A stretch of 64,000 nt of DNA from Rhizobium jaguaris (GTDB lineage Bacteria; Pseudomonadota; Alphaproteobacteria; Rhizobiales; Rhizobiaceae): the NCBI RefSeq assembly GCF_003627755.1, contig NZ_CP032695.1:806001-870000 (forward strand), read 5' to 3'. Position 1 is the stretch's first letter. Each line of letters opens with the position of its first letter. The notes under the pieces were generated by a model that saw only the letters and a program-made list of their open reading frames with translations, searched no databases and had not been told where the DNA came from. The position numbers and the translations under genes were made by a program. This document shows, piece after piece, positions 7,087-33,242 of the stretch.

Positions 7087-7128
7087 GGGAAATCACCTCT
7101 CGCCATAGAGTCGATAGACGATCGTTAT
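7087..7128 (-). promoter_or_regulatory. conserved promoter module, copy A (upstream of dps)
   Basis: Read on the minus strand: a T-N11-A box ATAACGATCGTCTAT (7128-7114), then CGACTCTATGGCGAG and AGGTGATTTCCC. The end of the module is 113 nt from the dps ATG. Four other copies occur at 24597, 32089, 33048 and 33200. Similarity to copy B continues on both sides for several tens of bases. The box is a near-palindrome (ATA-N9-TAT), as expected for LysR-type regulators. Confidence 0.65.
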
Positions 7129-7274
7129 CGCCGATCGCCGCACGGCGCGATGCCACGGCGAGGAATATGCCATACGCGGCTTAGCATCTCGGAACCGATG
7201 TTCTTGCTCTGCAGCCAAGCCTAAGCCGTGTTCACTCGCTGTCTCCGGTATAGCTACCTGAGGCGTGCGACGGC

Positions 7275-8060
7275 TCATGTCGATGGGGCAATCGGGATCA
7301 GGCGCTGATGAAGAAAGGCGGTCGGGGTCATTTTCGTTACTTGCCGGAAGGCAAACGAGAACGCGGCGGTGCTGCCGAAGCCTGTATCTTCCGCGACGCG
7401 CGAGATTGTACGCCCCGCCGACAGTTGATCGATTGCAAGGGCTATTCTTGCTCTTTGCCGCCAGGTCTTGAAGGTCAGTCCCGTTTCTGCCGGGAAAATC
7501 CGGCTGATCGTGCGGATCGACGTTGCCGCGCGAATGGCAAGGTCACTAACGCCGAGGTGCATCCGCGAATCCGCTAAAGCCAGATCAGCGACGCGTCTGC
7601 CGATCGTGCCCATTGGCATTGGAAGGAACACCGGAATGTCGGGTGTCTCGGTCAGCTCGTGAAGAATCAATCGGACGGCAAGCTCGGCTTTTTCGAACGG
7701 TATATCGTCCTTACAGGCGCAGAGGATCAGTTCCCGTAGAAGCGGTGTAACCGCAAGCGCGAATATGTAATCGAGCGGCCTTTTCGGCGCCCACTTCTGT
7801 AAAGCCGACGGGTGCCAGTAGATCATCCGCAATTCGGTATCGGAAAGCATATCGACCCGATGAGCTATGCGGGCTGGCATCCAGAGTGCAAGCTGGGGCG
7901 GGACGAACCACCGTCCAGATTCGGTGTAGACCTGCACCGTTCCTGAAGCAGCGAAGATCACTTGTGATTCTGCATGCGCGTGCCATGCGACGGCCTCACC
8001 CCGGGGGAACGTCCTGCGAAGAATGCCGAACGGCGTGGGTATCTGCGCCTGGCGTGTCAT
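7275..8060 (-). CDS. AraC family regulator with N-terminal cupin domain
   Basis: A 261-residue regulator. The N-terminal half is a cupin-like sensor (WHAHAESQVIFAASGTVQV). The C-terminal half has the two AraC helix-turn-helix motifs: LAIRAATSIRTISRIFPAET and then RVAEDTGFGSTAAFSFAFRQ, ending MTPTAFL in the usual place. It stands alone between dps (same strand, downstream) and a gap of about 550 bp. Such short cupin/AraC proteins often control a neighbouring efflux or reductase gene, but no divergent target is visible here. Confidence 0.88.
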   Translation of the reverse strand: MTRQAQIPTPFGILRRTFPRGEAVAWHAHAESQVIFAASGTVQVYTESGRWFVPPQLALWMPARIAHRVDMLSDTELRMIYWHPSALQKWAPKRPLDYIFALAVTPLLRELILCACKDDIPFEKAELAVRLILHELTETPDIPVFLPMPMGTIGRRVADLALADSRMHLGVSDLAIRAATSIRTISRIFPAETGLTFKTWRQRARIALAIDQLSAGRTISRVAEDTGFGSTAAFSFAFRQVTKMTPTAFLHQRLIPIAPST

Positions 8061-8614
8061 ATATATCGAATGGCCTCACATCGTTGAGGCGCCCTGGTAT
8101 CATCGCGCGATGAGTTGGTCGAGCGGCCTGTCGCCCAGACCTTCTTGTCCGTGTCCATCCCAAGGAGTTCTAACGAGAGCGCTAAGGTGAAGAGAATGCT
8201 GGCCACTGATGTGCGACGATGGCTAATCCGGCTCAACTGTTCCCGCAACACCAACTTTCGATCTACGGAAGCCGCTTCCGAGGGTAGGCGGAAGTTCGGC
8301 GGCCCAAAGTTCGCGCCAGGTCCAGATGGACCGTATCGAACCCTTAACGGTGTCGAAGCTCAAAGGAGCGTTCGCTAGCTCAACGACGATGGTGACCGCC
8401 AAGAAAAGGGGCAGCGGACGCGGACAGCTCCCCCGCTGAAGATCGGTCGGAGAACGGGCAGGTGCCGCCATCGACGGCGCGGCCGCGCCTGCTGCCTTTA
8501 TCCTCTCAAAAAACGAGAGATAGTGTCTCACGTCGCGGGTATTATCTTCGTGGACGAGAGGTGGCATTTTAGCCCCTAGACCCCGCGAGGAAATAGGACA
8601 AATTTAGAGAAGCG
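8061..8614. other. spacer of about 550 bp with no supported gene
   Basis: It separates the AraC gene (minus) from a LysR gene (plus) and must contain both promoters. Short frames on both strands have no recognisable product. The last 80 bases before the LysR start are AT-richer and may hold its promoter. Confidence 0.45.
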
Positions 8615-9496
8615 ATGAACGACCGACTTTTAGCACTGAAGCTGTTTTCTCGCGCGGGTCGCGTGGGCAACTTTTCGAGCGCCGGCCGCGAACTCGGTCT
8701 CTCTCAGCCCTCCGCCTCACGCCTTATCGCCGCGTTGGAAGCCGATGTTGGCGCGGCGCTCTTCAGCCGGACTACCCGTGCGGTCACGCTGACGGACGCT
8801 GGAGCAACCTATCTGATGCGTGTGGAGGCGATCCTGGCCGCCCTTGACGAGGCCGACCACGAGGCTCGCGGCACCGGAGAGCTTCGAGGGGTAGTTCGCG
8901 TGGGCACGCCGATAAGTTTCGCGCTGAGAGAAATCATCCCGCGGCTTCCCGCATTTATGAAGCAGCACCCGGCGTTGAAGATCGAGCTCCGGGTGACTGA
9001 CCGCTACCCAGACCTCGTCACTGAGGGCATCGACGTGTCGATCCAGTTCGGCGCGCTCCCCGATTCGAGCGCGACGGCGCGCAAGCTCATCCGCCAGCCA
9101 AGGATACTCACCGCTTCCCCGGACTACCTGCGCGAGCGCGGCACGCCCGCGATGCCGTCGGACCTCGCACATCACGTCGTGATCATCAGTCCAGCGCATC
9201 CCTCGCCGACTTTCTCGTTCCGCAAGGACGGGCGTGTCGTGTCCGTGCGCGTTGACGGTCAGCTCGCCATCACCATCAACGAAGGCGCCATTGCAAGCGC
9301 CGTCGTCGGGTTGGGGATCGCCGCGTCGAGCGAAAGTAGCGCGCGGGCAGAGCTCGAGGCCGGGGAGCTCGTACGGGTGCTGCCGGACTGGGACGTCGGC
9401 TCGATGGAAGTCACCGCCGTGTTCGTGAGCGGAAAGACCATCAAGCCGGCAGCCCGCGCCTTCACGGATTTCCTCGCCACGGAGCTTCGAAACTGA
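8615..9496 (+). CDS. LysR-type transcriptional regulator
   Basis: A 293-residue LysR protein. The helix-turn-helix is at about residues 18-40 (NFSSAGRELGLSQPSASRLI) and the effector domain contains VRVGTPISFALREIIPRLP and a GLGIAASSES lobe. It lies upstream of, and on the same strand as, the molybdopterin oxidoreductase / flavin reductase / OsmC genes at 9732-11639. A perfect 14-bp palindrome lies between this gene and that operon and could be its target site. Confidence 0.88.
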   Translation: MNDRLLALKLFSRAGRVGNFSSAGRELGLSQPSASRLIAALEADVGAALFSRTTRAVTLTDAGATYLMRVEAILAALDEADHEARGTGELRGVVRVGTPISFALREIIPRLPAFMKQHPALKIELRVTDRYPDLVTEGIDVSIQFGALPDSSATARKLIRQPRILTASPDYLRERGTPAMPSDLAHHVVIISPAHPSPTFSFRKDGRVVSVRVDGQLAITINEGAIASAVVGLGIAASSESSARAELEAGELVRVLPDWDVGSMEVTAVFVSGKTIKPAARAFTDFLATELRN

Positions 9497-9668
9497 CGCC
9501 ACCGACCATTCCTGCCGGTTATGGATATGATAGCTTTACCCGAATGGTCGTCGAATTTAACTAAAGAACGCACGAGCCGGGCGGATGCGGCGCCGAGATC
9601 TCCCTCGAATAGCAAGCCCTATTTTTGGGCTGCTGGCGACCTGCCCATTCGTCCAAGCCGGTGGACCA

Positions 9669-9682
9669 ATCGTTCGAACGAT
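9669..9682. promoter_or_regulatory. perfect 14-bp palindrome upstream of the oxidoreductase operon
   Basis: ATCGTTCGAACGAT is a perfect inverted repeat centred 56 bp before the ATG at 9732. It is the only such palindrome noticed in the 235-bp gap. A short hairpin-forming sequence (AGCAAGCCC / GGGCTGCT) precedes it near 9610-9635. An operator role is inferred from position and symmetry only. Confidence 0.4.
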
Positions 9683-9731
9683 CGGATCTAATCGCGAACA
9701 AGGCACCCGCAACGCTGCAAAGGAACCCAAC

Positions 9732-10337
9732 ATGGTGACTAGAGGCTTTACCGGCCGAAATTCGGCAGGCGACCAGTTGGATCGAATTCCGCCGGGCCAG
9801 CACCTTGTCGAGCACTTCCCCGTGCTGACGGCGGGGCCGACCCCGCGCGTCGAGACAGCCGATTGGAAATTTACCCTTAAGATCGGGCCGAGGACTATTA
9901 AGGTTTGGAATTGGAATGAGTTCAACGCGCTGCCCAAGACCAAGATGACGAGAGACATTCATTGCGTCACATCGTGGTCGAAACTCAACACCGCCTGGGA
10001 GGGCGTGATCGTGGACGACATCCTAGCTGACGCCGGCATCGAGCGTCCCAGCGATTTCGTGCTCGCACACTCCTACGATGGCTACTCGACAAATGTTCCT
10101 CTTGCAGATCTTGCGTCCGGAAAGGCCATGGTTGCTCTGAATTACGAGGGGCAGCCACTTGCGCGCGACCATGGCGGCCCGGCACGACTCCTCGTCCCAC
10201 ACCTCTACTTCTGGAAGTCCGCGAAGTGGCTAAATGCACTCCAATTTACCGAACGCGACGAGGCGGGCTTCTGGGAGTTGCGCGGATATCACATTTATGG
10301 CGACCCGTGGCGTGAGCAGCGATACACCGATGACTGA
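9732..10337 (+). CDS. sulfite oxidase-like molybdopterin-dependent oxidoreductase
   Basis: A 201-residue single-domain protein of the oxidoreductase molybdopterin-binding family (YuiH-like). The conserved cofactor Cys is C78 in RDIHCVTSWS, and GGPARLLVPHLYFWKSAKWL near residues 150-170 is characteristic. No signal peptide is present, so it is probably cytoplasmic. The frame is open upstream, but ATG 9732 gives the family N-terminus. The 3' end overlaps the flavin reductase gene by 8 bases, so the two are translationally coupled, and the reductase is the likely electron partner. The substrate is not established. Confidence 0.85.
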   Translation: MVTRGFTGRNSAGDQLDRIPPGQHLVEHFPVLTAGPTPRVETADWKFTLKIGPRTIKVWNWNEFNALPKTKMTRDIHCVTSWSKLNTAWEGVIVDDILADAGIERPSDFVLAHSYDGYSTNVPLADLASGKAMVALNYEGQPLARDHGGPARLLVPHLYFWKSAKWLNALQFTERDEAGFWELRGYHIYGDPWREQRYTDD

Positions 10338-11076
10338 GGGTGGCGCGCGACCGGCGTCCTGGCAGACATGCACCATCGCCCGGATCATTCAGCAAACGCC
10401 AAGCATCAAAAGCTTCTTCCTGCGGCTCAACGAGCCATTCGTGCATGTCGCCGGTCAACACGTCGATGTGCGACTGACCGCGCCAGACGGCTACGTGGCT
10501 CTGCGGAGCTATTCGATCGCCTCCTCGCCGAGTGCCTCGAATGTCATCGAGCTTGCGATCGAACGCCTCCCGGACGGCGAAGTCTCTCCGTTCTTCCATG
10601 ACTTCGCGGCCGTGGGCGACGAAATCGAACTGCGTGGCCCGCTCGGCGGCCACTTCCTGTGGCCTGAACGTTCAACAGCACCGGTACTGTTGATTGGGGC
10701 GGGGTCTGGCGTCGTGCCGCTGATGGCGATGATCCGGCAACGCCGCGACCTGGCGCAGACTGCGCCGACGGCGCTGCTCCTGTCATCGCGGACGCGACGC
10801 GACGTGTTGTTCGCCGATGAGTTGCTCTCGCTGGAGACGGCTGACCCGACCTTCAAGCTGGCGCTGGCGATTACTCGTGAGGCCCCGGTGCGCGCCTGCG
10901 ACTTTGGGCGGCGCATCGATAACGCGATGGTGGCCGAGTTAATTGCCCGGCTCCGTCACATGCCAGCACATGTCTTTATCTGTGGATCAAACCCATTCGT
11001 CGAAATCGCGGCCGATGGCGCGCTGATGGCAGGATTGGACGCCGCGGTGATCAAGACCGAACGCTATGGCGGCTAG
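10330..11076 (+). CDS. FAD/NAD(P)-binding ferredoxin-reductase-type oxidoreductase
   Basis: A 248-residue ferredoxin:NADP+ reductase-fold protein. The FAD site is RSYSIASSP (about residues 57-65), the nucleotide-binding loop IGAGSGVVPLMAM is near residue 120, and the C-terminal FICGSNPFVE is the family signature. There is no plant-type 2Fe-2S domain, so electrons must pass directly to a partner. The ATG at 10330 overlaps the end of the preceding sulfite-oxidase-like gene by 8 bases. This gene pair recurs in bacteria as a two-part molybdenum oxidoreductase; the match here is inferred from order and family. Confidence 0.87.
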   Translation: MTEGGARPASWQTCTIARIIQQTPSIKSFFLRLNEPFVHVAGQHVDVRLTAPDGYVALRSYSIASSPSASNVIELAIERLPDGEVSPFFHDFAAVGDEIELRGPLGGHFLWPERSTAPVLLIGAGSGVVPLMAMIRQRRDLAQTAPTALLLSSRTRRDVLFADELLSLETADPTFKLALAITREAPVRACDFGRRIDNAMVAELIARLRHMPAHVFICGSNPFVEIAADGALMAGLDAAVIKTERYGG

Positions 11077-11129
11077 CGACGCCGTTTGCGAGACACGCCC
11101 AATACACAATACAATGGAAGGAAAGCTCC

Positions 11130-11639: not shown

Positions 11640-11848
11640 GCGTCACGCAGACTATGATACTCGCGGGGTCTCAGGTTTCGTACAATGCACGAGCCTCGAT
11701 GCCTGCGCTCTCTTGCCATCGACCCGCAAGCCGGTGCTTTTTCCGCTGTCACGGCTCACCAGTCGCGGTCCTGAAACCAGGAAGGCCTACTGCTCATCCC
11801 AATAATAGGTTAATCAGGCGAGGACGCCCTCTCGAAAAGTGAGAGAAG

Positions 11849-12769: not shown

Positions 12770-12928
12770 GGTCGTAGGAGTGGCGCGAGACCACGATTGG
12801 CGCCGAGCGATAGAGTCTCGCTCATGTCGTGCGCGAATATCTCAAATTTGCGTTTCAGCACTACCGCCACAGCGACGCGACGCTCAATGTCGATAAGGGG
12901 CCTGCCGAATACGGTGAGGATAACCGCA

Positions 12929-13591: not shown

Positions 13592-13777
13592 TCCTCGACG
13601 CTGCCTGCGCCGGATTCCATAAAGCGTGTCCGCCCGTCCAGGAATGCCCGACGCGGGTTTCATCTCGACGGCACCGGTGGCAACGTAGTTTTCGGATCTA
13701 GCGCCCTGCGGCTGGTGTGACGCTGCGTCGCCATCGCCCGGGCTCAGTAGTCACGGAAATAGTTGACGGTGAACACC

Positions 13778-14737
13778 ATGGAACTCCATCAGGTTCGGTA
13801 CTTTCTAGCTGTCGCAAGCACGCTGAACTTCACGCGTGCCGCGGAGATGTGTAACGTTACGCAACCGTCACTGACCAAGGGCGTGCAAAAGCTCGAGCAG
13901 GAACTTGGGGGCGAGCTCATCTACCGGGAACGTCAGCTCACCCATCTCACCGACTTGGGCAAAGCTGTGCTGCCCATGCTCGAGCGCGCCCTTGCATCGA
14001 CCGAGGCCGTTCGACGCCGGGCGCGTGAGTTTCGGCAAAAGGAAGTCGCTCCATTAACGATCGGTCTCGCCCCATCGATTTCCGCGTCGCTCATTGTCGA
14101 GCCGATTGCGGAAATTCGCAAATTCGTCCCCGGCCTCTATGTCGAGCTTCGAGAAGAGCCGCCAAGCCGCCTTGTCGAACTCCTGCTGGAGGGCGAAGTC
14201 AATGTCGCCCTGGTCGGCGATCTTGACGATACGCCAGAACGGATCGACGATTGGGCGCTGTTCGAAGAGCGCTGTGTCGCCGTCCTCGCTCCGTCGCATG
14301 AACTTGCAGACCTTCCAGAGATCGGAATGGACGCGCTTCGCGAAGCCACTATCCTGGATCGCTCCTACTGTGACATGGCTCCAAAGTTTCATCGTCTCTA
14401 CTTTCCCGACGCGCCGCCGCATCACAATCATCGCAGTTGCCGGGACTTGCACCTGCAGCATTTGGCAGCCGCCGGGTTTGGAATAGTCCTCGCTCCCGAG
14501 CATATGCCCCTGCTACCCTCACTGAAGGCGCTTCCGATCGAAGGGGATCCGGTATGGCGAGAGGTCCGGCTTCTTGCGGTACAGGGCCGCCGCTACTCAC
14601 CGGCGCTTGATGCCTTCATAAAGGTGGTGCGGTTGCGCGACTGGTCGCTCCACACAGAAGCGCCCCGCCAAACAGAACATCACATAACAGCCACCTCGAA
14701 GCCACCGGTCTGTCCGCATGACCCCGCATATTGCTAA
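13778..14737 (+). CDS. LysR-type transcriptional regulator
   Basis: About 319 residues starting MELHQVRYFLAVASTLNFTR, the classic N-terminus of this LysR subgroup, so ATG 13778 is preferred over the in-frame TTG 15 bases upstream. Helix-turn-helix NFTRAAEMCNVTQPSLTKGV. The effector domain contains LAPSISASLIVEPIAEIRKF. The last 25 residues (TEHHITATSKPPVCPHDPAYC) are an atypical extension. The stop is 9 bases before the third peroxiredoxin-like gene, so the regulator and that gene are probably cotranscribed. Confidence 0.87.
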   Translation: MELHQVRYFLAVASTLNFTRAAEMCNVTQPSLTKGVQKLEQELGGELIYRERQLTHLTDLGKAVLPMLERALASTEAVRRRAREFRQKEVAPLTIGLAPSISASLIVEPIAEIRKFVPGLYVELREEPPSRLVELLLEGEVNVALVGDLDDTPERIDDWALFEERCVAVLAPSHELADLPEIGMDALREATILDRSYCDMAPKFHRLYFPDAPPHHNHRSCRDLHLQHLAAAGFGIVLAPEHMPLLPSLKALPIEGDPVWREVRLLAVQGRRYSPALDAFIKVVRLRDWSLHTEAPRQTEHHITATSKPPVCPHDPAYC

Positions 14738-14746
14738 TTTCTTGAG

Positions 14747-15466
14747 ATGCCCGGTGTGCAGATGAACGTCGAATTGATGTCCGACCATTTAACCAAGACC
14801 CTCAGTCAGATGCGTCACGAGCTTTTGGCGGGCCTCAGTGGCGCTGACCGTGAAGCGTACATTCAGCTCGTCGATTGGCTTCGCAAGATTGATGTCGCGT
14901 CACGCGCATTGCAGGTTGGCGACACGGCGCCAGATTTTCTTCTGCCCGATGCGCATGGACGACTTCATTCGTCCGAACAGCTTCGTCGCGAAGCGCCGCT
15001 TGTGGTTAGCTTCTACCGGGGTGGATGGTGCCCATTCTGCAACGCCGAGCTTAGCGCTCTTCAGGCGGTCAAGGCCGAATTTGATAGTCTGAAGACGAAC
15101 ATTGTTGTCGTGTCTCCGGAGACCCGTGATCTGCCGAGGCAGTTGAAACGGCAGTTGAACCTCGACCTGACGATGCTCGCCGACGTCGACCATGGCGCGG
15201 CAATATCCTACGGCGTCCTATTTCGTGTCCCTGACGAAACCAAGGCGCACTATGCGGGGCAAGGTTACGACTTCGGGCACCGTCATGGATCGACCGAGTG
15301 GATGCTGCCAATCCCGGCTACTTTCGTGATCGATCAAGACGGCGTCGTCAGGGGTGCCTTCGTCGAGCCCGATTTTACAATCCGCCAAGAGCCAACCGAC
15401 ATTCTCAACAAAGTGCGTCAACTTGCCGGATCTCAGGCAGAGGATGCTTCCGCCTCCGACGAATGA
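14747..15466 (+). CDS. peroxiredoxin-like / AhpC-TSA thioredoxin-fold protein
   Basis: Up to 239 residues; possible starts are 14747, 14762 and 14777, none with a strong ribosome-binding site. The redox motif is YRGGWCPFCNAELSALQA near residue 95. It differs from the other two paralogues in having an extra loop (YAGQGYDFGHRHGSTEWMLP) before the C-terminal strand, as in a separate subgroup of this family. It directly follows a LysR gene and precedes a damaged SDR gene. Confidence 0.85.
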   Translation: MPGVQMNVELMSDHLTKTLSQMRHELLAGLSGADREAYIQLVDWLRKIDVASRALQVGDTAPDFLLPDAHGRLHSSEQLRREAPLVVSFYRGGWCPFCNAELSALQAVKAEFDSLKTNIVVVSPETRDLPRQLKRQLNLDLTMLADVDHGAAISYGVLFRVPDETKAHYAGQGYDFGHRHGSTEWMLPIPATFVIDQDGVVRGAFVEPDFTIRQEPTDILNKVRQLAGSQAEDASASDE

Positions 15467-16964: not shown

Positions 16965-16966
16965 CC

Positions 16967-17602
16967 ATGACAGACGCAATCACCATGACCAACCCCGTGA
17001 TCGAAACGATTTTGAGCCGCAGTGCCGCCAAATACTACGACACTGCCGCCACTCTGAGCGACGATCAAATTCGTGAACTCGTGCGGATCGGCACCAGCGC
17101 ACCGACATCCTTCCACTTGCAGAACTGGCGCTTCATCGCGGTGCGCTCGCGTGAGGCCAAAGCTCGGCTGAGTCCGATCGCCTGGAGTCAGCCCGCGATC
17201 ACCGATGCGGCGGTTACCTTTATCGTCATCGGCCAATTGGCCGACTCCAGCGTCATACCGGATCGCCTGGCACCGGTGGTGGAAGCGGGAATCATGGCGG
17301 AGAGGTTGGTCCCGGAGTGGGAAATCCCTGCGCGCGATCTGTACATGGAATACCCGCAGCGCCAGCGCGACGAGGCGGTACGGTCCGCCACCTTTGGGGC
17401 GGCGGCGATGATCTACGCGGCCCGCTCGCTGGGCCTCGGTTCGACGCCGATGATCGGTTTCGATGCGGAAGCGGTACACCGCGAGTTCGGACTGGCCGAG
17501 GATGAAGTGCCGGTCATGCTGTTGTCCATAGGGGCGGAGCGTCCGGGAAACTGGCGGCAGAAGCCGCGCCGTCCGGTGGCCGACGTACTGGATTTCGTAT
17601 AA
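16967..17602 (+). CDS. nitroreductase family protein (copy 1)
   Basis: A 211-residue FMN-dependent nitroreductase-fold protein, expected to reduce nitro compounds or quinones with NAD(P)H. Family features include the N-terminal RSAAKYYD segment, GTSAPTSFHLQNWRFIAV (FMN-contacting) and GAAAMIYAARSLGLGSTPMIG. The start ATG 16967 is two bases inside the duplicated block; its own upstream sequence (ATAGGAATCACC) is not shared with copy 2. The AhpD-like gene follows after 34 bases, probably cotranscribed. The protein is identical to the copy at 21864. Confidence 0.9.
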   Translation: MTDAITMTNPVIETILSRSAAKYYDTAATLSDDQIRELVRIGTSAPTSFHLQNWRFIAVRSREAKARLSPIAWSQPAITDAAVTFIVIGQLADSSVIPDRLAPVVEAGIMAERLVPEWEIPARDLYMEYPQRQRDEAVRSATFGAAAMIYAARSLGLGSTPMIGFDAEAVHREFGLAEDEVPVMLLSIGAERPGNWRQKPRRPVADVLDFV

Positions 17603-17636
17603 TTAATAATAAAACCAATACCTTACGGAGATTATC

Positions 17637-18182
17637 ATGCCCAGAACTGCAGCACCGAGCCCGGAACAGGTGCCGGCCGATTCCAAGCCGACCCTCGATA
17701 TGTTCACCAAGAATATCGGCTTCACCCCAAATATGCTGGCGACCTTCGCGCTGAGCCCGATCGCATTCAACGCATGGGCCACCTTGCTCGGCTCCATGAG
17801 CAAGGCGCTCGACGTGAAGACGCGCGACAGCATCGGCCTTGCTGTCTCAGAAGTGAACGGCTGCAACTACTGCCTGACGGTTCACAGCTTCACCGCCGAG
17901 CATATGGCCAAGCTGCCAGCCGATGAAATCATTCTCGCTCGGAAGGGCCATGCCAGCGACCCGAAGCGGGACGCCGCCGTCCAGTTCGCGCGCAAAGTCA
18001 TCGAGACCCGCGGGCAGGTCAGTGACGCCGATGTGAAAGCCGTCCGCGATGCCGGCTACACGGATGCGAACATCATGGAGATCATCGCGCTGGTCGCAAT
18101 GTACTCCCTGACGAACTTTTTCAATAACGTGTTCGATCCCGAGAAGGACTTTCCCGCCGTCAGGCCAGCTGGATCGATCTGA
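17637..18182 (+). CDS. carboxymuconolactone decarboxylase / AhpD-like protein (copy 1)
   Basis: A 181-residue all-helical AhpD-like protein. The redox/proton-relay motif CNYCLTVH (about residues 75-82) is intact, which marks the alkylhydroperoxidase-type branch rather than the true decarboxylase. It follows the nitroreductase by 34 bases with ACGGAG before its ATG. A thiol-based role beside a flavin reductase suggests electrophile or peroxide detoxification. It is identical to the copy at 22534. Confidence 0.9.
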   Translation: MPRTAAPSPEQVPADSKPTLDMFTKNIGFTPNMLATFALSPIAFNAWATLLGSMSKALDVKTRDSIGLAVSEVNGCNYCLTVHSFTAEHMAKLPADEIILARKGHASDPKRDAAVQFARKVIETRGQVSDADVKAVRDAGYTDANIMEIIALVAMYSLTNFFNNVFDPEKDFPAVRPAGSI

Positions 18183-18252
18183 ACCCGATCCGGTCGCGTC
18201 GACCATCTCCGAGGGTCCTCGGGGCGTCATGTGACGCGAACGTAACGCCAAA

Positions 18253-18295
18253 GCCCGGATGCACCCAGGATAGAGCCTTGGGAATGCGTCCGGGC
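18253..18295. terminator. strong nested hairpin after the AhpD-like gene (copy 1)
   Basis: GCCCGGATGCA (18253-18263) pairs with TGCGTCCGGGC (18285-18295), with one wobble, and an inner CCCAGG/CCTTGGG stem nests inside. There is no T-run, so it may be a Rho-assisted or processing structure rather than a classical terminator. It is part of the duplicated block and recurs at 23150-23192. Confidence 0.5.
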
Positions 18296-18346
18296 GCTTC
18301 ATATGGGCCGACAACGTCAGGATAATTTATTTTCCGGGGTAAAAGC

Positions 18347-21679: not shown

Positions 21680-21863
21680 ACGCGCTTTGTTTTCGTTGCG
21701 GTCTGAATGAGCGCCAGACACATTAGCCTATCGCGGTGGCCGCCGTTTGGCGAGAGCCGCGTCATATTGATCCTTTTGAGCATTTTATTGAGCTATTTAC
21801 GTCTCGAAAATACCATAGGCTAGGTCTAATTTCAGGCTCGTAACCACCTGATGAGGACGAGCC

Positions 21864-22499
21864 ATGACAGACGCAATCACCATGACCAACCCCGTGATCG
21901 AAACGATTTTGAGCCGCAGTGCCGCCAAATACTACGACACTGCCGCCACTCTGAGCGACGATCAAATTCGTGAACTCGTGCGGATCGGCACCAGCGCACC
22001 GACATCCTTCCACTTGCAGAACTGGCGCTTCATCGCGGTGCGCTCGCGTGAGGCCAAAGCTCGGCTGAGTCCGATCGCCTGGAGTCAGCCCGCGATCACC
22101 GATGCGGCGGTTACCTTTATCGTCATCGGCCAATTGGCCGACTCCAGCGTCATACCGGATCGCCTGGCACCGGTGGTGGAAGCGGGAATCATGGCGGAGA
22201 GGTTGGTCCCGGAGTGGGAAATCCCTGCGCGCGATCTGTACATGGAATACCCGCAGCGCCAGCGCGACGAGGCGGTACGGTCCGCCACCTTTGGGGCGGC
22301 GGCGATGATCTACGCGGCCCGCTCGCTGGGCCTCGGTTCGACGCCGATGATCGGTTTCGATGCGGAAGCGGTACACCGCGAGTTCGGACTGGCCGAGGAT
22401 GAAGTGCCGGTCATGCTGTTGTCCATAGGGGCGGAGCGTCCGGGAAACTGGCGGCAGAAGCCGCGCCGTCCGGTGGCCGACGTACTGGATTTCGTATAA
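21864..22499 (+). CDS. nitroreductase family protein (copy 2)
   Basis: Identical in sequence to the nitroreductase at 16967. This copy is preceded by about 185 bp of AT-richer DNA after the broken AraC gene, with an inverted pair TAGCCTAT (21724) / ATAGGCTA (21815), so it looks more like a native promoter context than copy 1 has. An AraC-type regulator directly upstream of an NAD(P)H nitroreductase is a common arrangement. FMN binding and quinone or nitro reduction are inferred from family. Confidence 0.9.
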   Translation: MTDAITMTNPVIETILSRSAAKYYDTAATLSDDQIRELVRIGTSAPTSFHLQNWRFIAVRSREAKARLSPIAWSQPAITDAAVTFIVIGQLADSSVIPDRLAPVVEAGIMAERLVPEWEIPARDLYMEYPQRQRDEAVRSATFGAAAMIYAARSLGLGSTPMIGFDAEAVHREFGLAEDEVPVMLLSIGAERPGNWRQKPRRPVADVLDFV

Positions 22500-22533
22500 T
22501 TAATAATAAAACCAATACCTTACGGAGATTATC

Positions 22534-23079
22534 ATGCCCAGAACTGCAGCACCGAGCCCGGAACAGGTGCCGGCCGATTCCAAGCCGACCCTCGATATGT
22601 TCACCAAGAATATCGGCTTCACCCCAAATATGCTGGCGACCTTCGCGCTGAGCCCGATCGCATTCAACGCATGGGCCACCTTGCTCGGCTCCATGAGCAA
22701 GGCGCTCGACGTGAAGACGCGCGACAGCATCGGCCTTGCTGTCTCAGAAGTGAACGGCTGCAACTACTGCCTGACGGTTCACAGCTTCACCGCCGAGCAT
22801 ATGGCCAAGCTGCCAGCCGATGAAATCATTCTCGCTCGGAAGGGCCATGCCAGCGACCCGAAGCGGGACGCCGCCGTCCAGTTCGCGCGCAAAGTCATCG
22901 AGACCCGCGGGCAGGTCAGTGACGCCGATGTGAAAGCCGTCCGCGATGCCGGCTACACGGATGCGAACATCATGGAGATCATCGCGCTGGTCGCAATGTA
23001 CTCCCTGACGAACTTTTTCAATAACGTGTTCGATCCCGAGAAGGACTTTCCCGCCGTCAGGCCAGCTGGATCGATCTGA
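22534..23079 (+). CDS. carboxymuconolactone decarboxylase / AhpD-like protein (copy 2)
   Basis: Identical to the protein at 17637, with the CNYCLTVH motif intact. It follows nitroreductase copy 2 with the same 34-base gap. Downstream, after the shared hairpin and a further spacer with a possible terminator, comes the interrupted quinone oxidoreductase gene, which would fit functionally as the next member of a quinone/nitro detoxification cluster. Confidence 0.9.
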   Translation: MPRTAAPSPEQVPADSKPTLDMFTKNIGFTPNMLATFALSPIAFNAWATLLGSMSKALDVKTRDSIGLAVSEVNGCNYCLTVHSFTAEHMAKLPADEIILARKGHASDPKRDAAVQFARKVIETRGQVSDADVKAVRDAGYTDANIMEIIALVAMYSLTNFFNNVFDPEKDFPAVRPAGSI

Positions 23080-23149
23080 ACCCGATCCGGTCGCGTCGAC
23101 CATCTCCGAGGGTCCTCGGGGCGTCATGTGACGCGAACGTAACGCCAAA

Positions 23150-23192
23150 GCCCGGATGCACCCAGGATAGAGCCTTGGGAATGCGTCCGGGC
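23150..23192. terminator. strong nested hairpin after the AhpD-like gene (copy 2)
   Basis: Second copy of the hairpin at 18253-18295, at exactly the same offset within the duplicated block. The 11-bp outer stem has one wobble, and no T-run follows. Confidence 0.5.
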
Positions 23193-23332
23193 GCTTCATA
23201 TGGGCCGACAACGTCAGGATGAATTGGCACCAAATCAGGGTTCCATGACTATCTCCGCACCCGAGCATGCAAAACCATATGCAAGGGGAGGACCGAACGG
23301 CGAAATCGAACAGAGTTGAGGCGACGGATGGG

Positions 23333-24596: not shown

Positions 24597-24639
24597 ATAA
24601 CGATCCTCTATCGACTTTATGGCGAGAGGTGATTTCCCT
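24597..24639 (+). promoter_or_regulatory. conserved promoter module, copy B (upstream of GMC oxidoreductase)
   Basis: Box ATAACGATCCTCTAT (24597-24611), then CGACTTTATGGCGAG and AGGTGATTTCCCT. The module ends 130 nt before the ATG at 24769 and points to it. Similarity to copy A extends upstream (GGCATCGTGCCGCGCGGCGA versus a near-match in A) and about 45 bases downstream, so whole promoter regions are related, not just an operator. Confidence 0.65.
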
Positions 24640-24768
24640 CACGAGCATGGGAAAGTCATCCTCCAACGCATGATCCAATGAACCTCGGAATCAGGTGCCG
24701 CGATAGCGCGCGCCGTGGCGGGCGTTGATTGAACCACAATAGCGGTGCGAAAGAGAAGAAAGACACGG

Positions 24769-26379
24769 ATGTCCCAGGAAACCTACGACATTGTCATTGT
24801 TGGCGCGGGCGCGGCCGGCTGTGTCGTCGCGAGTTATCTCGCCGAGCACACCGATGCATCGATCGCCTTGATCGAAGCCGGCGATACGGATCGCGATCCG
24901 TTCATCCACATTCCCGCCGGCTTCGCCAAAATGCTGGCCCACGACCGGCATGTCTGGAAATACGAGACGGTTCCCCAACACGGCACCAAGCGAGCATATC
25001 GCTCGGGCAAGGTCCTCGGCGGCGGCTCCTCGATCAATGCAATGGCCTACGTGCGCGGGCAAAAAGGCGACTACGCTGCGTGGCAAGACGCGGTCGGCAA
25101 GACCGGCAAATGGTCGTATGAAGACCTGCTTCCCGCCTTCATGGCGCAGGAAGATAACGACACCTTCCATGACGAATATCACGGCATCAATGGTGGCCTG
25201 GCGGTCCAGTTGCCGAAGGGAATCAATAAGCTGAACCAATATTGTCTCAAGGCATTCCAGGAATATGGGATTCCTTATAATCCCGACTACAATGGCAAAA
25301 GCCAGATCGGCGTCTCGCCGGTGCAGTCTACGGTCGGAAATCAACGGCGGTGCAGCGCGGTCGATGCTTATCTGCGTCCGCACCTCGCGTCGGGCCGAGT
25401 GATCCTACTCACAGGCAAGACCGTCGTTCGCATCCTCGTCGAGAACAAGCGGGCGGTTGGTGTCGAGCTTTTGAGCAAGGACCCCGAGAGGATCATGGCC
25501 GGCGAGGTTGTGCTCTCGGCCGGCAGCGTCCATAGCCCGACGATCCTCATGCATTCGGGCATCGGGCCAGCCGAGCAGCTTCGCCAGCACGGCATCCCGG
25601 TGATCGTCGATTCCCCGGAGGTGGGCGAAAATCTCCAGGACCATCCGATGGTACCTGTCCGTGGTTATGTGACGGGTGATCTCGGCTATCAGGCAGCCGC
25701 GCATGGCCTTGGCAGCGTGAAGGCGGGCCTCCGCTATTTGGTGACCAAGGATGGCCCTGCGTCGGGCAATGGTATCGAGACGGTCTCCCACTGGAATCCG
25801 TCCGACTTCACCGCCGACCCCACGATCCAATGCTATCACGCTCCTATCATCGCGAACCAGGAACTCAGCCCGACGGGGGACCGCTCCGGCATTACCTTCG
25901 AACTCGTAGTGCTTCGGCCCAAGAGCCGTGGCTGGGTACGGTTGGCCGATAGCGACCCGACGTCGATGCCCCTCATCCACCCGAACTTCATCGGCGAGGA
26001 GGAAGACTTGAGGGCCGTCGTGGGTGCGGTACGCGCGATCCGCAAGGTTATGGCGCAGGAGTCGTTGGCGCCGGTGATCGAGGAAGAAATCGAGCCCGGG
26101 CTGCACATCCAGTCGGACGCCGAGATCGGTGAATGGGTAAAGCGTGCCGTGACGACAATGTGGCACCCGGTCGGCACGTGCCGGATGGGTCAGGACGCGC
26201 GAGCGGTAGTTGACGCGAGGCTCAGGGTCCGCGGGATCGAGCGCCTCCGGGTGATCGACGCCTCAATCATGCCGAACATCACCAGCGGCAATACCAACGC
26301 CCCGACACAGGCGCTCGCGCGGCACGCAACGGCGATGCTGGTCAAGGATCTGAAGCGGACCCAAGCAGTTCTCGTGTGA
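24769..26379 (+). CDS. GMC family oxidoreductase (choline dehydrogenase-like)
   Basis: A 536-residue FAD-dependent alcohol dehydrogenase of the glucose-methanol-choline family. The FAD site is IVIVGAGAAGCVVASYLAE at the N-terminus, followed by the GMC signature region GKVLGGGSSINAMAYVRG. The C-terminal catalytic segment contains TMWHPVGTCRMG and then NITSGNTNAPTQALA. It oxidises primary or aromatic alcohols in the family; the substrate is unknown. ATG 24769 is preferred to the GTG at 24745. Its promoter carries module copy B. Confidence 0.9.
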   Translation: MSQETYDIVIVGAGAAGCVVASYLAEHTDASIALIEAGDTDRDPFIHIPAGFAKMLAHDRHVWKYETVPQHGTKRAYRSGKVLGGGSSINAMAYVRGQKGDYAAWQDAVGKTGKWSYEDLLPAFMAQEDNDTFHDEYHGINGGLAVQLPKGINKLNQYCLKAFQEYGIPYNPDYNGKSQIGVSPVQSTVGNQRRCSAVDAYLRPHLASGRVILLTGKTVVRILVENKRAVGVELLSKDPERIMAGEVVLSAGSVHSPTILMHSGIGPAEQLRQHGIPVIVDSPEVGENLQDHPMVPVRGYVTGDLGYQAAAHGLGSVKAGLRYLVTKDGPASGNGIETVSHWNPSDFTADPTIQCYHAPIIANQELSPTGDRSGITFELVVLRPKSRGWVRLADSDPTSMPLIHPNFIGEEEDLRAVVGAVRAIRKVMAQESLAPVIEEEIEPGLHIQSDAEIGEWVKRAVTTMWHPVGTCRMGQDARAVVDARLRVRGIERLRVIDASIMPNITSGNTNAPTQALARHATAMLVKDLKRTQAVLV

Positions 26380-27322: not shown

Positions 27323-27500
27323 TGCCGCAAAATGTATTTCCCTCTCTTGCCTCTGCTCACGCCGGCGGCGGCGAGATCCGTTGCCTGGCCATTTGGTCGG
27401 CGAGTTCCGTCTGGTCCTGTTCAACCGCTTTTGCTCAGGTTTATTCAAATGTTCTGCGAATAACGGAGGAACAGCAGAAGATTGGCGGGGAGGTCGATGA

Positions 27501-28961: not shown

Positions 28962-29335
28962 AAAGCAATATCGGACACATAGGGGCGCGGAGTTATGACC
29001 GCCCTTGGGCCTGATAACATTTCAGCAGATCGGCAACGAAGCCGGAGGCCCACGATCCACGATCCAACGATGCGTTGCCGTTCGGGGATGACCGCTGAAC
29101 GAGATATCGGTTGGCGATCCATCGCGTTGCGCTCGATACGAGCGCAGATGTCGATGCGTCGGCATTGTGGCAAAGCAAGGTCGTCACCGAAATGGTATCG
29201 CGCGGAGGCTTGAGATGCTTGCAGGTAATGGAATCCATGCCTTCGAGGAGCGGGACGAACCATCGAAATACTGGCAAAATCTGGCTTGGCACAGACTATT
29301 TAAGCTCTGTCGGATCGAACGTGAGGCGGGTAGGT
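28962..29335. other. spacer of about 370 bp with no supported gene
   Basis: A minus-strand frame covers most of it (28958-29263), but its product has no recognisable motif and no ribosome-binding site. It may be decayed coding sequence. Confidence 0.45.
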
Positions 29336-29641
29336 ATGCGGCCGGATTGGGTGCCATATTTTTTTCTATCCGCCGCAACCAGTCTAAGCTTGCCCCAACT
29401 CATAACATTATTCGAAACAGGTCAGGTGTCCCTGACTTCGAGGTTCCTTCGGGTTCTCGCGGGGCTGGTTGTGGTCTCTGCGATTGCACTTGGCGTGCGA
29501 GAAAATGGACTTCTGGCGAGCCTGGTGATCTTTGTCTGCAGTTACTCCATTTCTCCGTTACTGCGCTTCCAAGATCGCTCTCGCGTCGCGTCCGTTTGCG
29601 CGTCCGCTGTTTGCCTCCTGATTTTTATTGGGCCCCTGTAA
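29336..29641 (+). CDS. small hypothetical membrane protein
   Basis: A 101-residue product with probably three hydrophobic helices (around LSAATSLSLPQLITLF, FLRVLAGLVVVSAIALGV and LLASLVIFVCSYSI) and short polar loops, ending in another hydrophobic stretch at LLIFIGPL. The frame is open further upstream, but ATG 29336 with GAGGCGGG nearby gives a clean membrane protein. No family is recognised. Base composition is lower in GC than its neighbours. Confidence 0.45.
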   Translation: MRPDWVPYFFLSAATSLSLPQLITLFETGQVSLTSRFLRVLAGLVVVSAIALGVRENGLLASLVIFVCSYSISPLLRFQDRSRVASVCASAVCLLIFIGPL

Positions 29642-29994
29642 ATTGAGCAAAATTGGCCAGTCTGAGATCGCATACAACCTACGAGGCGTGCGTCCTGGCG
29701 TTCCAGACACATTTGCGAACCTCTCAACCGCCAATGCTTTGACCCGTCCCAATAACTTTGTGTTATTGACTTCATTGCGGCTCGGCATTTCCAATTTACC
29801 GTCGCAGGCGACAATCTGTTGGCGATACGGCTGTACCAACTAAAACATCAGTTCTCATTCCGCGTAGTCGTTGGTCTACGATTTTGAACGCCGCGCAATG
29901 CGACTGTCTCCGGTCATCGACCGCGTATGGTTGAGGCTGTTTCAGCGCCGTTGAATAATTGTCTGTCTTTGACTAAGTCCCTACGGAGGTTGTT
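29642..29994. other. spacer of about 350 bp upstream of the osmF-like gene
   Basis: No gene is supported. It is AT-richer than the surroundings and should contain the promoter of the binding-protein gene; ACGGAGG is visible just before that gene's TTG start. Otherwise nothing stands out. Confidence 0.45.
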
Positions 29995-30906
29995 TTGTCC
30001 CTGAAGAAGTTTGCAGTTGCAGTCTCACTATATGCCCTTGCCGCCGGCGCGGCGCATGCCGCAGATGTCGTCGTCTCGTCTAAGATCGATACCGAAGGGA
30101 CCCTCCTCGGCAATGTCATTGCACTCGCGCTCGAGGCGAATGGCATCAAGACACAGGATCGCATCGCTCTTGGTGCGACGCCCGTTGTTCGCAAAGCAAT
30201 CACTGCCGGTGAGATCGATATCTATCCGGAATACACTGGCAATGCCGGCTTTTTTTTCAACAAGCCAGATGACCCCGCCTGGAAAAACATCAACCAGGGC
30301 TATGCCATGGCAAAAAAGCTCGACTACGACGCCAACAAGATCGTCTGGTTGACGCCGTCGCCGGCCAACAATACCTGGGCGCTCGCTGTACGACGCGACG
30401 TCGCAGGCCCCAACAATCTGAAGACGATGTCGGATTTCGGTAAGTGGGTTGGCCAGGGCGGAGCCGTGAAGCTTGCGGCGTCGGCAGAATTCGTCAATTC
30501 CGCCGGCGCGCTTCCGGCCTTTCAAACGACTTACCGCTTCATGCTGAAGCCTGAACAGGAAATCGTACTTTCAGGAGGAGATACCGCGGCCACGATCAAG
30601 GCTGCAGCCGACCAAACCAACGGTGTCAACACAGCGATGGTTTACGGCACCGACGGCGCGATTGAAGCAGCCGAGCTGACGGTCCTCGAGGACGACAAAA
30701 GTGTGCAGCAGGTCTATGCGCCAACGCCGATCATCCGCGAGGCTGTGCTGAAGGCCTACCCGAAGATCGAGGAGATCCTCGCACCGATCTTCAAGGGCCT
30801 GACCGCCGACGAGTTGCGTAAGCTTAACGCCAAGATCCAAGTTGACGGCGAGCCGGCAAAGTCGGTTGCCACGGACTATCTGAAGGAAAATGGCTTTCTG
30901 AAATAA
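29995..30906 (+). CDS. osmF: glycine betaine/choline-type ABC substrate-binding protein (OsmF/YehZ-like)
   Basis: A 303-residue periplasmic binding protein. A signal peptide is clear (MSLKKFAVAVSLYALAAGAAHA, cleaved near residue 22), followed by the OsmF-type start ADVVVSSKIDTEGTLLGNVI and EIDIYPEYTGNAGFFF, then the aromatic-box region. The TTG start at 29995 has ACGGAGG seven bases before it. No permease or ATPase gene is adjacent, so it is an orphan component. Quaternary-ammonium osmoprotectant uptake is the family role. An IS3 remnant abuts its 3' end. Confidence 0.88.
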   Translation: MSLKKFAVAVSLYALAAGAAHAADVVVSSKIDTEGTLLGNVIALALEANGIKTQDRIALGATPVVRKAITAGEIDIYPEYTGNAGFFFNKPDDPAWKNINQGYAMAKKLDYDANKIVWLTPSPANNTWALAVRRDVAGPNNLKTMSDFGKWVGQGGAVKLAASAEFVNSAGALPAFQTTYRFMLKPEQEIVLSGGDTAATIKAAADQTNGVNTAMVYGTDGAIEAAELTVLEDDKSVQQVYAPTPIIREAVLKAYPKIEEILAPIFKGLTADELRKLNAKIQVDGEPAKSVATDYLKENGFLK

Positions 30907-31020
30907 CCCGTCGCTGGACTGCGCCGAATGGAGCCGTTGCTTGTTATAGGTTTCTTCAATGAAGTGAGGAAGATGATCGATGACATCGTCAATGGATTCG
31001 AACGCCATCACCGACCCCAC
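30907..31020 (-). mobile_element. IS3-family transposase (OrfB) C-terminal remnant
   Basis: Read on the minus strand, about 33 codons give FESIDDVIDHLPHFIEETYN and KQRLHSA, the well-known C-terminal end of IS3-family DDE transposases just before the LGY.SP motif. The similarity stops at Ala, and the remnant begins directly after the stop codon of the osmF-like gene. Nothing else of the IS was found. Confidence 0.65.
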
Positions 31021-31266
31021 GGACGCAGTCCAGTCGCTCCAATTGAATGCAAAAGCGACAACGATCTGTGGCCGAGACCCGTCGCCGACAGGCCCTCTGC
31101 CCGAGCACTAACCGCGGCTGAGGCGCTCGTTGCCAGGCGCTAGAGCCATCGCAAGCCAACCTAGGATAACAGTATCTTGCTGCTAATCCATAACGCGGAT
31201 TGTTCGTAATGGGCCTGGACGCGTTTAGCGACTTCCCCGCGCTGCTCGCCCGTTTGCGGAGCCGTG

Positions 31267-31952
31267 TCAAGCGCGGAGGGTCTCGCCGCCCTTCGCGTCC
31301 GCGTAGTACCGAGGCGCCTCACGACGGTCGCATTTGCCGTAATCGCGCACGATCCGCACTCTGCGGACGCTCGCCTTGTCATTCGGCCCGGAAGCGTCCT
31401 CGTAGGCCTGCGCCGCGGCGGCGTCTTTCCAGGATATGAGCAGGATCAGGTTGCCGGGCGTGAGCACGGCATCGAAGATGTCCCAGGACGTGCTGTCGGC
31501 GGCCCACGGGTTCAGGCCGAGCCATTCGCCGCAGTCGTACGGGTTCTCGGTCTGCTTCCATTCCGCCGGGCGAGTCGCATTGATCAGCGTGACCGTCGTT
31601 CCGTCCCCGACTTCGGTCTCGTCGAGCCGCTGCTCTGCGAGGACTTATCCGGCAGGCACCTGATTGTCGGCGGTGACCTGGCCGACGCGCAGGTGGTAGT
31701 CCGCGAGGATTTCGTCGCGGCCCTTCTGCTGGACGTCATGATGGCGCACACGGGTGCGCCATCGGACGAGCGACTTCTCGTCCCGCCAGTTCGAAAGCGA
31801 AACGATCCAGCCCTCACGAGTCAGGCTCTTGTAGCGGATGTTGTCGACGAAACCCTCGACCTGCTCCAACTCGGGGCGCAGCATCCTGGCATTTTCGAAG
31901 TAGTCATCCCAGTTCTCTTTATTAGGGGGACCTCGAATATCACTGAAAACAT
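31267..31952 (-). pseudogene. antibiotic biosynthesis monooxygenase (ABM)-domain protein, frameshift and in-frame stop
   Basis: The reading order on the minus strand is MFSVIFEV, then in another frame NKENWDDYFENARMLRPELE through ADYHLRVGQVTAD, then an in-frame TAA (31645-31647), then EQRLDETEVGDGTTVTLINA and onward to RIVRDYGKCDRREAPRYY. This fits a two-ABM-domain protein of about 230 residues. The frameshift lies at a five-G run (31925-31929). Two independent lesions make it a real pseudogene. It still has module copy C upstream. Confidence 0.8.
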
Positions 31953-32088
31953 GGTCGTATCTCGTTGCGACGCCATCTGTCGCGATGTCGAAGTGCCCCA
32001 CCCAGACGCGCCGTCGTCACAGCAGAAGACATGATTGTGCGCTGGGTGAGCACGGTACCGTTCAAGCATGGAATTCCGTGCGGCGAAT

Positions 32089-32130
32089 GGGAAACAATGT
32101 CGCGCCATGGAGTCGATAGCTGCGCGTTAT
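32089..32130 (-). promoter_or_regulatory. conserved promoter module, copy C (upstream of the ABM pseudogene)
   Basis: Minus strand: ATAACGCGCAGCTAT (32130-32116), CGACTCCATGGCGCG, then TTTCCC. The module ends 137 nt before the pseudogene start. Similarity to copy D continues for over 150 bp, including GATGGTCGTAGGCAC and GTCTTCGCGG upstream of the box. Confidence 0.6.
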
Positions 32131-32523
32131 GATGGTCGTAGGCACACAAACACGTCTTCGCGGTCGCTGATAGTTCTGCCCCGGTGAGTGTCCTTAGCGA
32201 AGCGACGCACTCCCACCGCAACGTGCCAAACGGTGATGGCACTGGTTGGCGACCTCGCGACGATTGAGCAGGGTGCCGACGGCTCGGCTGCTCTTGTCGG
32301 TGCCCCGCATGCGCTGTTCAACGAGATCGGATTATTGCTGACAACGAGGCGCGTTGAAGCACTTCAGCGCTACCGCAGCGATGCGCAAGTTGGTCCGAAG
32401 CTGAGGCTGTTGGGCGTACCGGGCCGGCGCCTGGACTCAATCATCTCGCGTGGTCGCGAGCGGCCGGCGACCAGGCCCGTGCGGGCGCGCGGTCGCGAAC
32501 GCCGCGCTCCGCGGTTCCCGGTC
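32131..32523. other. spacer of about 390 bp, no supported gene
   Basis: The left part is the upstream extension of module C. A plus-strand frame starting 32188 yields a fairly protein-like stretch (DGSAALVGAPHALFNEIGLL) but no family is recognised and it runs antisense into the cupin gene. I do not call it a gene. Confidence 0.4.
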
Positions 32524-32937
32524 CTAGGGGAACGTCAGGCCGAAAGCGGCTGGATCGGGCTGCTCGCCGTTCTGGGGCACCAAGAAGCGCTCCAGCCCAC
32601 CCGGCACGAAGCTGGCCAGCAGGGTCGCCTGGTCGCCGACCACCTCGATCGTATGCGGCACACCGCGGGGAAGAGCCGCGAAGGCACCCGGCCCCACTTC
32701 GACGCGGGCATCGCCGACCTGTGCGATTAGCTGCCCCTGGACCACATAGACTAGCTCGTCCTCGAGCGAGTGGGTGTGAAGTGGCGGCTCCTCCCCGGCT
32801 CGCACTGTCCACAGGACAACGCCATATTCGCCCCCGGACTGGCTGCTCTCCACTTTGATCTCGATGCTCGAACCGCCGCTCGAGGTCGCTGTCGCGCCGC
32901 CGTTAGGCGGGGTTAGAACCGGCTTCTGAACTGACAT
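32524..32937 (-). CDS. cupin domain protein
   Basis: A 137-residue single cupin. Motif 1 appears as PPLHTHSLEDELVYVVQG (metal ligands His-His-Glu) and motif 2 as ALPRGVPHTIEVVG. A flexible Gly/Ser/Thr-rich N-terminus precedes the barrel. AGGAGACTACAA stands directly before ATG 32937, so the longer frame to 33126 is rejected. The enzymatic role is unknown; such cupins often act on quinones or serve as dioxygenase-like proteins. Its promoter carries module copy D. Confidence 0.88.
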   Translation of the reverse strand: MSVQKPVLTPPNGGATATSSGGSSIEIKVESSQSGGEYGVVLWTVRAGEEPPLHTHSLEDELVYVVQGQLIAQVGDARVEVGPGAFAALPRGVPHTIEVVGDQATLLASFVPGGLERFLVPQNGEQPDPAAFGLTFP

Positions 32938-33047
32938 TTGTAGTCTCCTGATTGTGAACCTTTGTTTGAGTATCGCAGCGGCAGCGAAAGGTTGCCGCTC
33001 ACGCCCATCAGCATGGGCCCATAAGCATGGGACTGTCCGCGGCGAGT

Positions 33048-33089
33048 GGGAAGTGACGTCACGCCATGGAGTCGATAGCCGTGCGTTAT
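33048..33089 (-). promoter_or_regulatory. conserved promoter module, copy D (upstream of cupin)
   Basis: Minus strand: ATAACGCACGGCTAT (33089-33075), CGACTCCATGGCGTG, then a CACTTCCCACT end in which TTTCCC is CTTCCC. It ends 111 nt before the cupin ATG. It is closest to copy C. Copy E lies 110 bp away in the opposite orientation, so this is a divergent pair. Confidence 0.6.
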
Positions 33090-33199
33090 GATGGTTGTAG
33101 GCACGTGAACAGGTCTTCGCGGCCACTGACCGCTCGGCTCTGGTAGTCCTCGTCTGGGAAGCGCCGCAGTCGCTCCGTCGCGTCCCAAGCCTCTTTCCG

Positions 33200-33242
33200 A
33201 TAACGGTCGGCTATCGACTCCATGGCGAAAGGTGATTTCCCT
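33200..33242 (+). promoter_or_regulatory. conserved promoter module, copy E
   Basis: Plus strand: ATAACGGTCGGCTAT (33200-33214), CGACTCCATGGCGAA, AGGTGATTTCCCT. The box is part of a longer palindrome CGATA-N9-TATCG. It ends 102 nt before an ATG at 33344 that has an AGGAGG ribosome-binding site. It forms a divergent pair with copy D. Confidence 0.6.

Follow-up and report, generated by a model that had tools for sequence, protein, structure and literature searches.

The stretch of Rhizobium jaguaris DNA considered here (64,000 nucleotides, positions 806,001 to 870,000 of contig NZ_CP032695.1, hereafter the window) contains five copies, A to E, of a 43-bp module, which face, respectively, genes for Dps, a GMC oxidoreductase, an ABM-type monooxygenase (in fragments), a cupin and a small protein resembling the N-terminus of a kinase. 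The window also contains the gene of a LysR-type protein, directly followed by an AhpC/TSA peroxiredoxin-like gene, and we consider it very probable that each copy of the module is a complete, activator-dependent LysR-type promoter run by this regulator of the island itself, the whole representing a local regulon inherited with it. The coordinates are collected in Table 1.

A search of the window with the 28-base core ATAACGNNCNNCTATCGACTYYATGGCG, allowing up to 3 mismatches, yielded five matches, all of them perfect, compared to 0 in 100 shuffles, a result by which a chance origin of the five copies is ruled out; the 15-base first part on its own (up to 2 mismatches) gave 10 matches with 6.9 expected, which is not beyond chance. 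The places, orientation and near-constant spacing of the five copies given in a preliminary description of this DNA are borne out by these pattern matches. The distance from the end of the module to the start codon, as set by home-made gene calls, amounts to 111, 129, 109 and 101 nt for copies A, B, D and E, respectively. The ABM-type pseudogene claimed at copy C is indeed a broken gene, with two fragments faced by the module, the first of which is 91% identical over 79 amino acids to part of a 228-amino-acid relative; the small open reading frame said to lie at copy E does face it and is better described as the remnant of a kinase, being 41% identical over 92 amino acids to the N-terminus of a 355-amino-acid kinase of the kind most often targeted at other loci.

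The sites had been thought to form a dispersed regulon, five copies of which were seen. The full set is larger and at the same time local: in the genome (8,025,568 bases in 4 contigs) the core with up to 3 mismatches occurs seven times, always perfectly, from C2:766935 to C2:839227, and an eighth copy with two mismatches (C2:788350-788377), found with a looser pattern and backed by the weight matrix, lies 97 nt upstream of a gene with a HATPase domain. All 8 good copies are thus confined to 72 kb of one 2.58-Mb contig, and three other, scattered three-mismatch matches of the looser pattern are taken as chance. The two copies to the left of the window are directed at a pair of related genes, of which the one searched matches PNPOx_N.

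The looser pattern fixes positions 1-6, 13-18, 20, 23-25, 27 and 28 and restricts positions 12 and 19, so that conservation at these positions is by construction. Its exact scan over one genome per species returned 94 stretches, and the 80 of these with titles listed are all from Bradyrhizobium, Mesorhizobium, Rhizobium or Afipia. The 144 matches were reduced to 120 distinct sites, many of which are related by descent, so that the counts given here are not independent. Outside annotated records, genes were called with a home-made dicodon gene finder, and long distances may therefore reflect missed genes. None of the 120 sites lies inside a called gene, and of the 119 followed by a gene, 116 point at that gene and share its strand, the distance being at most 160 nt in 78 cases and at most 200 nt in 82, with a peak at 100-110 nt. 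The preliminary description had proposed enrichment near start codons in the same orientation as a check, and had held that sites in random orientation or inside genes would contradict it; the former is present and the latter are not, with the exception of a single Sinorhizobium mexicanum site taken up below. For two plasmids the RefSeq annotation is mostly in accord with this picture. On Mesorhizobium sp. B2-1-1 a site is found 110 nt before a sulfite-oxidase-like gene, and in S. mexicanum, where the scan covered about 191 kb of 436 kb, sites precede a GMC gene by 109 nt, the gene of an ATP-binding protein by 96 nt and a hypothetical gene by 106 nt. When plasmids were searched with the dps module (E 0.01), one record matched.

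These data bear on the idea of a mobile or selfish repeat, the upstream position of which would be incidental. Such an origin could explain why the likeness of copies C and D spans ~180 bp (-99 to about +80) despite their different genes, and why the bases at positions 44-60 are partly conserved ahead of unrelated genes. On the other hand, it fits poorly with the absence of sites from called genes, the nearly uniform orientation, the preferred distance to start codons and the crowding of all good copies into 72 kb of an 8-Mb genome, and we regard it as very unlikely. A repeat without function is likewise disfavored by clustering, orientation and preferred spacing.

The 99 targets located within 350 nt of a site fall into 20 groups, and many code for redox or efflux functions. 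The largest groups are HATPase sensor kinases (22), GMC oxidoreductases (18) and cupins (11), followed by RND adaptor-like (7), sulfite-oxidase-like (6), PNPOx-like (5), RidA-like (4), MFS-like (4), ABM (3), Dps (3) and peroxiredoxin-like (2) genes, the RND, MFS and peroxiredoxin names having been read from the sequence or from the RefSeq names of relatives. The sensor kinases of the commonest group (L076 4278-5345 and relatives) are ~355 amino acids long and have their HATPase domain at the C-terminus.

The distribution of the motif was compared with that of the regulator, using as query the paralogue P0118 (C2:719566), which is 73% identical to the window copy, at a threshold of E 1e-60; in each genome, scores were obtained for just the few top candidates (11 in the regulator search). 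Within one genus, 32 of 195 genomes match the motif (backwards control 0), 28 of them with at least two copies. Motif and regulator occur together in 29 genomes, the motif alone in 3, the regulator alone in 2 and neither in 161 (Fisher p 7e-29), so that the regulator is present in 29/32 motif-bearing and 2/163 motif-free genomes, including all 28 with at least two copies. The relative is 83-91% identical in 25 of the 29 co-occurring genomes and only 58-61% identical in the remaining four (G309, G377, G382 and G385). Among the two genomes with the regulator alone, G482 encodes a protein of 85% identity, with a class-2 motif (see below) about 1 kb from its gene, and G327 a relative of 42% identity. 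In a sample of the order, 5 of 297 genomes match the motif (backwards control 1 match), three with clusters (7, 3 and 8 copies) and two with a single three-mismatch match, and the regulator is found in 3 of the 297, exactly those with at least two copies. Three genomes have one three-mismatch site as their sole match, and in two of them this site is found in the company of LysR genes. In G302 it is 1.4 kb away from the gene of a LysR relative of 34% identity and close to a peroxiredoxin-like gene. In G213, which belongs to another family, it reads ATAG-N7-CTAT and separates an SDR gene from a divergently oriented LysR gene (37% identity), beyond which follow two peroxiredoxin-like genes. The patchy and clustered occurrence of the element is what islands gained by transfer would be expected to show.

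That the module is bound by another regulator of host or island, be it a response regulator fed by the kinase, a different LysR protein or the chromosomal OxyR, is improbable, even if HATPase sensor kinases form the largest target group (22/99), response regulators are present in some islands and the 15 + 7 + 15 layout described below equals that of the OxyR box as given in an excerpt of PMC10580950. In fact, the two other island regulators examined in this role track the motif less well: another LysR gene is present in 10/32 motif-bearing and 6/163 motif-free genomes (E 1e-80), and a response regulator in 14/32 and 5/163 with the limit at E below 1e-100, which was set post hoc because the gene occurs in 162 of the 195 genomes when E 1e-50 is used. 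For an island target gene the corresponding values are 18/32 and 15/163 (E 1e-70). Furthermore, a T-N11-A site at -65 suits LysR proteins and not response regulators, and OxyR is widespread in rhizobia, whereas the motif is rare, which counts against OxyR as the binder.

The anatomy of the element suits a LysR-type activator. It consists of ATA-N9-TAT (positions 1-15, site 1), 7 bases, AT-N11-AT (23-37, site 2), TTTCCC (38-43), 17 bases and CATTCT (61-66). Over the 120 sites, conservation begins at about -1, stays high to 43, drops at 44-60, rises again at 61-66 and has faded by about 75. At positions that the pattern leaves free, A36 is found in 98%, T37 in 97%, T38 and T39 in 100%, C41 in 96%, C61 in 89%, A62 in 87% and T66 in 86% of the sites; when one site is drawn from each of the 20 target groups, A36, C61, A62 and T66 still reach 97, 95, 82 and 72%, respectively. 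If TTTCCC and CATTCT represent the -35 and -10 boxes, the transcription start is predicted at position 73, and arithmetic from these predicted boxes centers site 1 at -65 and site 2 at -43. According to an excerpt of PMC4834489, the T-N11-A site of LysR proteins is situated near -65 and additional contacts extend to the -35 box, so that the predicted center of site 1 coincides with the textbook LysR position. The T2-N11-A14 pair is present at site 1 of the window copies and is fixed by the pattern in the wider set; it is also retained, there without being forced, in the class-2 sites, G213 and G302, and is absent from a few weak sites. The earlier guess of an activation site and a -35 box behind ATA-N9-TAT fits the conserved positions outside the search pattern (29-43, 61, 62 and 66), and the element as a whole reads as a LysR-type promoter, predicted from these features. 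A sigma-54 promoter was rejected, the GG-N10-GC spacing being absent from the sequence.

The location of the module ~100 nt upstream of the start codon and its strong conservation could also be those of an RNA leader element or riboswitch. This is most improbable, however: the window gives no Rfam match at gathering thresholds, and a promoter-like pair with 17-bp spacing follows the module, which itself would then not be transcribed.

As to the regulator, the preliminary description had found none next to any copy. This is correct in so far as the candidate gene lies 6.6 kb from copy A, yet it is in the window, and in some other genomes it adjoins the sites. Indeed, gene clustering around the sites recovers this LysR family at 17 loci, 15 of them within the 94 stretches and often near a site, and the helix-turn-helix is 83-89% identical to that of the window copy in 15 of the 16 others and 66% identical in one. 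The premise that a LysR-type module acts in trans on redox genes thus finds support in motif, orientation and co-occurrence. Two paralogues exist in the genome, P0118 and C2:739650. The latter (C2:739650-740543) is 99.5% identical over 980 bp to the window copy (C2:819778-820671), which indicates a recent duplication of the regulator gene. In PDB searches the regulator matches a LysR-family regulator (7w06) ahead of OxyR chains, and its AlphaFold model is poor (mean pLDDT, the predicted local distance difference test score, 51).

E. coli OxyR uses Cys199 and Cys208, nine residues apart. In the present family, Cys198 (199 in one case) is found in 48 of 48 relatives, and a second cysteine occurs at 208 in 5 of 6 relatives of 58-63% identity, at 219-221 in most others and nowhere in a few. 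Together with the nature of the targets and the peroxiredoxin neighbor, Cys198 suggests a thiol-based redox or electrophile switch.

The mechanism that we propose would be set off by such a redox or electrophile stimulus, for which Cys198 may be the sensor. A tetramer of the island regulator, the product of the window gene (13769-14737) or of either paralogue, would bind both sites, the centers of which (-65 for site 1 and -43 for site 2) are separated by 22 bp in an OxyR-like layout, and would aid RNA polymerase at the poor core promoter TTTCCC-N17-CATTCT. The local regulon thereby turned on would comprise about 20 kinds of gene, among them those for the sensor kinase, GMC, sulfite-oxidase-like, cupin, PNPOx-like, RidA-like, ABM, Dps and peroxiredoxin proteins and for RND and MFS efflux, and regulator and targets would be inherited jointly in patchily distributed rhizobial islands. 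Of this picture, the motif with its orientation and spacing, the clustering and the co-occurrence are observed; binding, activation, start site and signal are inferred.

Several observations weigh against this proposal. The co-occurrence partly reflects island linkage. Two genomes (G425 and G435) have one good copy each and no regulator at E 1e-60, their orphan sites preceding a cupin gene and a partial kinase gene; G100 has a single three-mismatch match and no LysR or peroxiredoxin-like neighbor in the 3 kb seen; and on a Rhizobium plasmid, the 20 kb around the gene of a regulator of 56% identity are free of the module. In S. mexicanum, one site overlaps a short gene annotated on the opposite strand, within which it is contained, and the nearest start ahead of it on the site's strand is 696 nt away. 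The TTTCCC and CATTCT hexamers match the sigma-70 consensus poorly. Furthermore, the usual LysR autoregulation through the same site was not seen among 42 regulator upstream regions (4 short regions having been dropped): the module is present in one of them, ~400 nt upstream and pointing away. None of the 25 NCBIfam models shown, out of 47, reaches its cut-off for the regulator, and the GltC, HcaR, CynR and AlsR models, all below cut-off, outscore OxyR. Finally, several paralogues could share or divide the sites.

Table 1. Sites and genes considered in the text (window coordinates, except for the class-2 sites; matrix scores are circular for sites used in training)
Feature	Position	Strand	43-bp module	Matrix score (bits)	Remarks
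Copy A	7063..7128	-	7128-7086	105.7 (training sites include copy A)	site 1 7128-7114, site 2 7106-7092, -35-like TTTCCC 7091-7086, -10-like CATTCT 7068-7063
Copy B	24597..24662	+	24597-24639	92.4	-10-like CATCCT
Copy C	32065..32130	-	32130-32088	58.5	-10-like CATGCT
Copy D	33024..33089	-	33089-33047	66.5	-10-like CATGCT
Copy E	33200..33265	+	33200-33242	82.0	-10-like CAAGTT; divergent from copy D
Weak candidate sixth site	29752..29794	+		3.8	200 nt before OpuAC substrate-binding protein gene 29995-30906
dps gene, copy A target	6459..6974	-			171 amino acids; best model Dps, below its cut-off
Candidate activator, LysR-type regulator gene	13769..14737	+			member of the family co-occurring with the motif
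AhpC/TSA peroxiredoxin-like gene	14747..15466	+			directly after regulator; neighbor also beside distant relatives
GMC oxidoreductase gene, copy B target	24769..26379	+			gene call and family search
ABM-type monooxygenase gene fragment, downstream of copy C	31645..31884	-			further fragment 31267-31467
Cupin gene, copy D target	32524..32937	-			gene call and family match
Open reading frame, copy E target	33344..33604	+			86 amino acids; resembles N-terminus of the kinase most often targeted elsewhere; without Pfam match
Class-2 sites	L037 2149; L062 5646; L161 25036 and 27475; L008 13616; others				

A related, class-2 operator, GATACCTCACGCCTATCGAATGCATGTCCAAAGGGAATTTC, has the same edges and spacing as the module, with 18 sites in its matrix, and where examined is found before cytochrome P460 and DUF1993 genes and, at several loci, near the regulator operon. 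Mesorhizobium sp. B2-1-1 has two such sites, for which the next annotated start is at a distance of 755 and 395 nt, and S. mexicanum one, 160 nt before DUF1993. A possible third operator class, ATGATAAATGGTTATCGGATAGATAGTCACACGGCATTTCCC, has three weak matches (L021 832, L032 2433 and L101 6623).

The aforementioned likeness of copies C and D in front of different genes, together with the 84% identity of copies A and B over 101 bp, makes it probable that it was the promoter that was copied, although these sequences do not fully distinguish copying from strong constraint. Two further features of the surrounding DNA may be mentioned. A direct repeat of 1,364 bp (16965-18327 and 21862-23225 of the window) with 99.9% identity points to a very recent duplication and carries a carboxymuconolactone-decarboxylase-like gene and a gene judged by eye to be nitroreductase-like, the same two clusters in either copy. 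A DUF3788 gene (33777-34271) adjoins copy E, and this stretch is found in many rhizobial and some other plasmids with 76-86% DNA identity.

In broader terms, the data might describe a self-contained, horizontally mobile redox-defense regulon of rhizobia in which a ~70-bp cassette was copied before about 20 unrelated kinds of gene and is served by one dedicated regulator family, OxyR-like in layout yet distinct, with paralogues having related operator classes; this wider picture is tentative and we would place it a little short of an even chance. The module is of interest in that it links a LysR family that remains below all NCBIfam cut-offs shown to an operator, a core promoter and a list of targets, all of them proposed here, in rhizobia, where redox control is important in symbiosis; and, if the cassette was copied, as C and D suggest, the growth of a regulon by promoter copying becomes open to study. 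No description of the motif, the regulator or the regulon was found in open-licence PubMed Central papers.

Three known systems invite comparison. The LsrB protein of Sinorhizobium meliloti, to which the regulator is likened by description, is also a rhizobial LysR protein with redox-active cysteines and a role in stress genes, whereas the targets named in the excerpted review are glutathione and lipopolysaccharide genes (PMC8226930). The nod box, a 47-bp NodD element of rhizobia according to an excerpt of PMC5596368, is likewise a long, fixed rhizobial LysR element upstream of target operons; in the nod box, however, ATC-N9-GAT, NodD and nodulation genes take the place of the ATA-N9-TAT and redox genes of the module. 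The third system is the OxyR box of E. coli, presented in an excerpt of PMC10580950 as ATAGntnnnanCTAT-7 nt-ATAGntnnnanCTAT, with which the module shares the 15 + 7 + 15 bp arrangement as well as the ATA and TAT ends of site 1, the ATAG-N7-CTAT of G213 being also in keeping with it. Dps and a peroxiredoxin-like gene among the targets, a conserved Cys198 in the regulator and the OxyR chains among its PDB matches are further points in common. On the other hand, the regulator, at 80.2 bits, falls below the NCBIfam OxyR cut-off (329) and does not qualify as a member of that family, site 2 retains little beyond AT-N11-AT, and the linker is a fixed CGACTYY. Thus, the module does not contain two full ATAG-N7-CTAT sites 7 bp apart, but the spacing of the OxyR box is kept.

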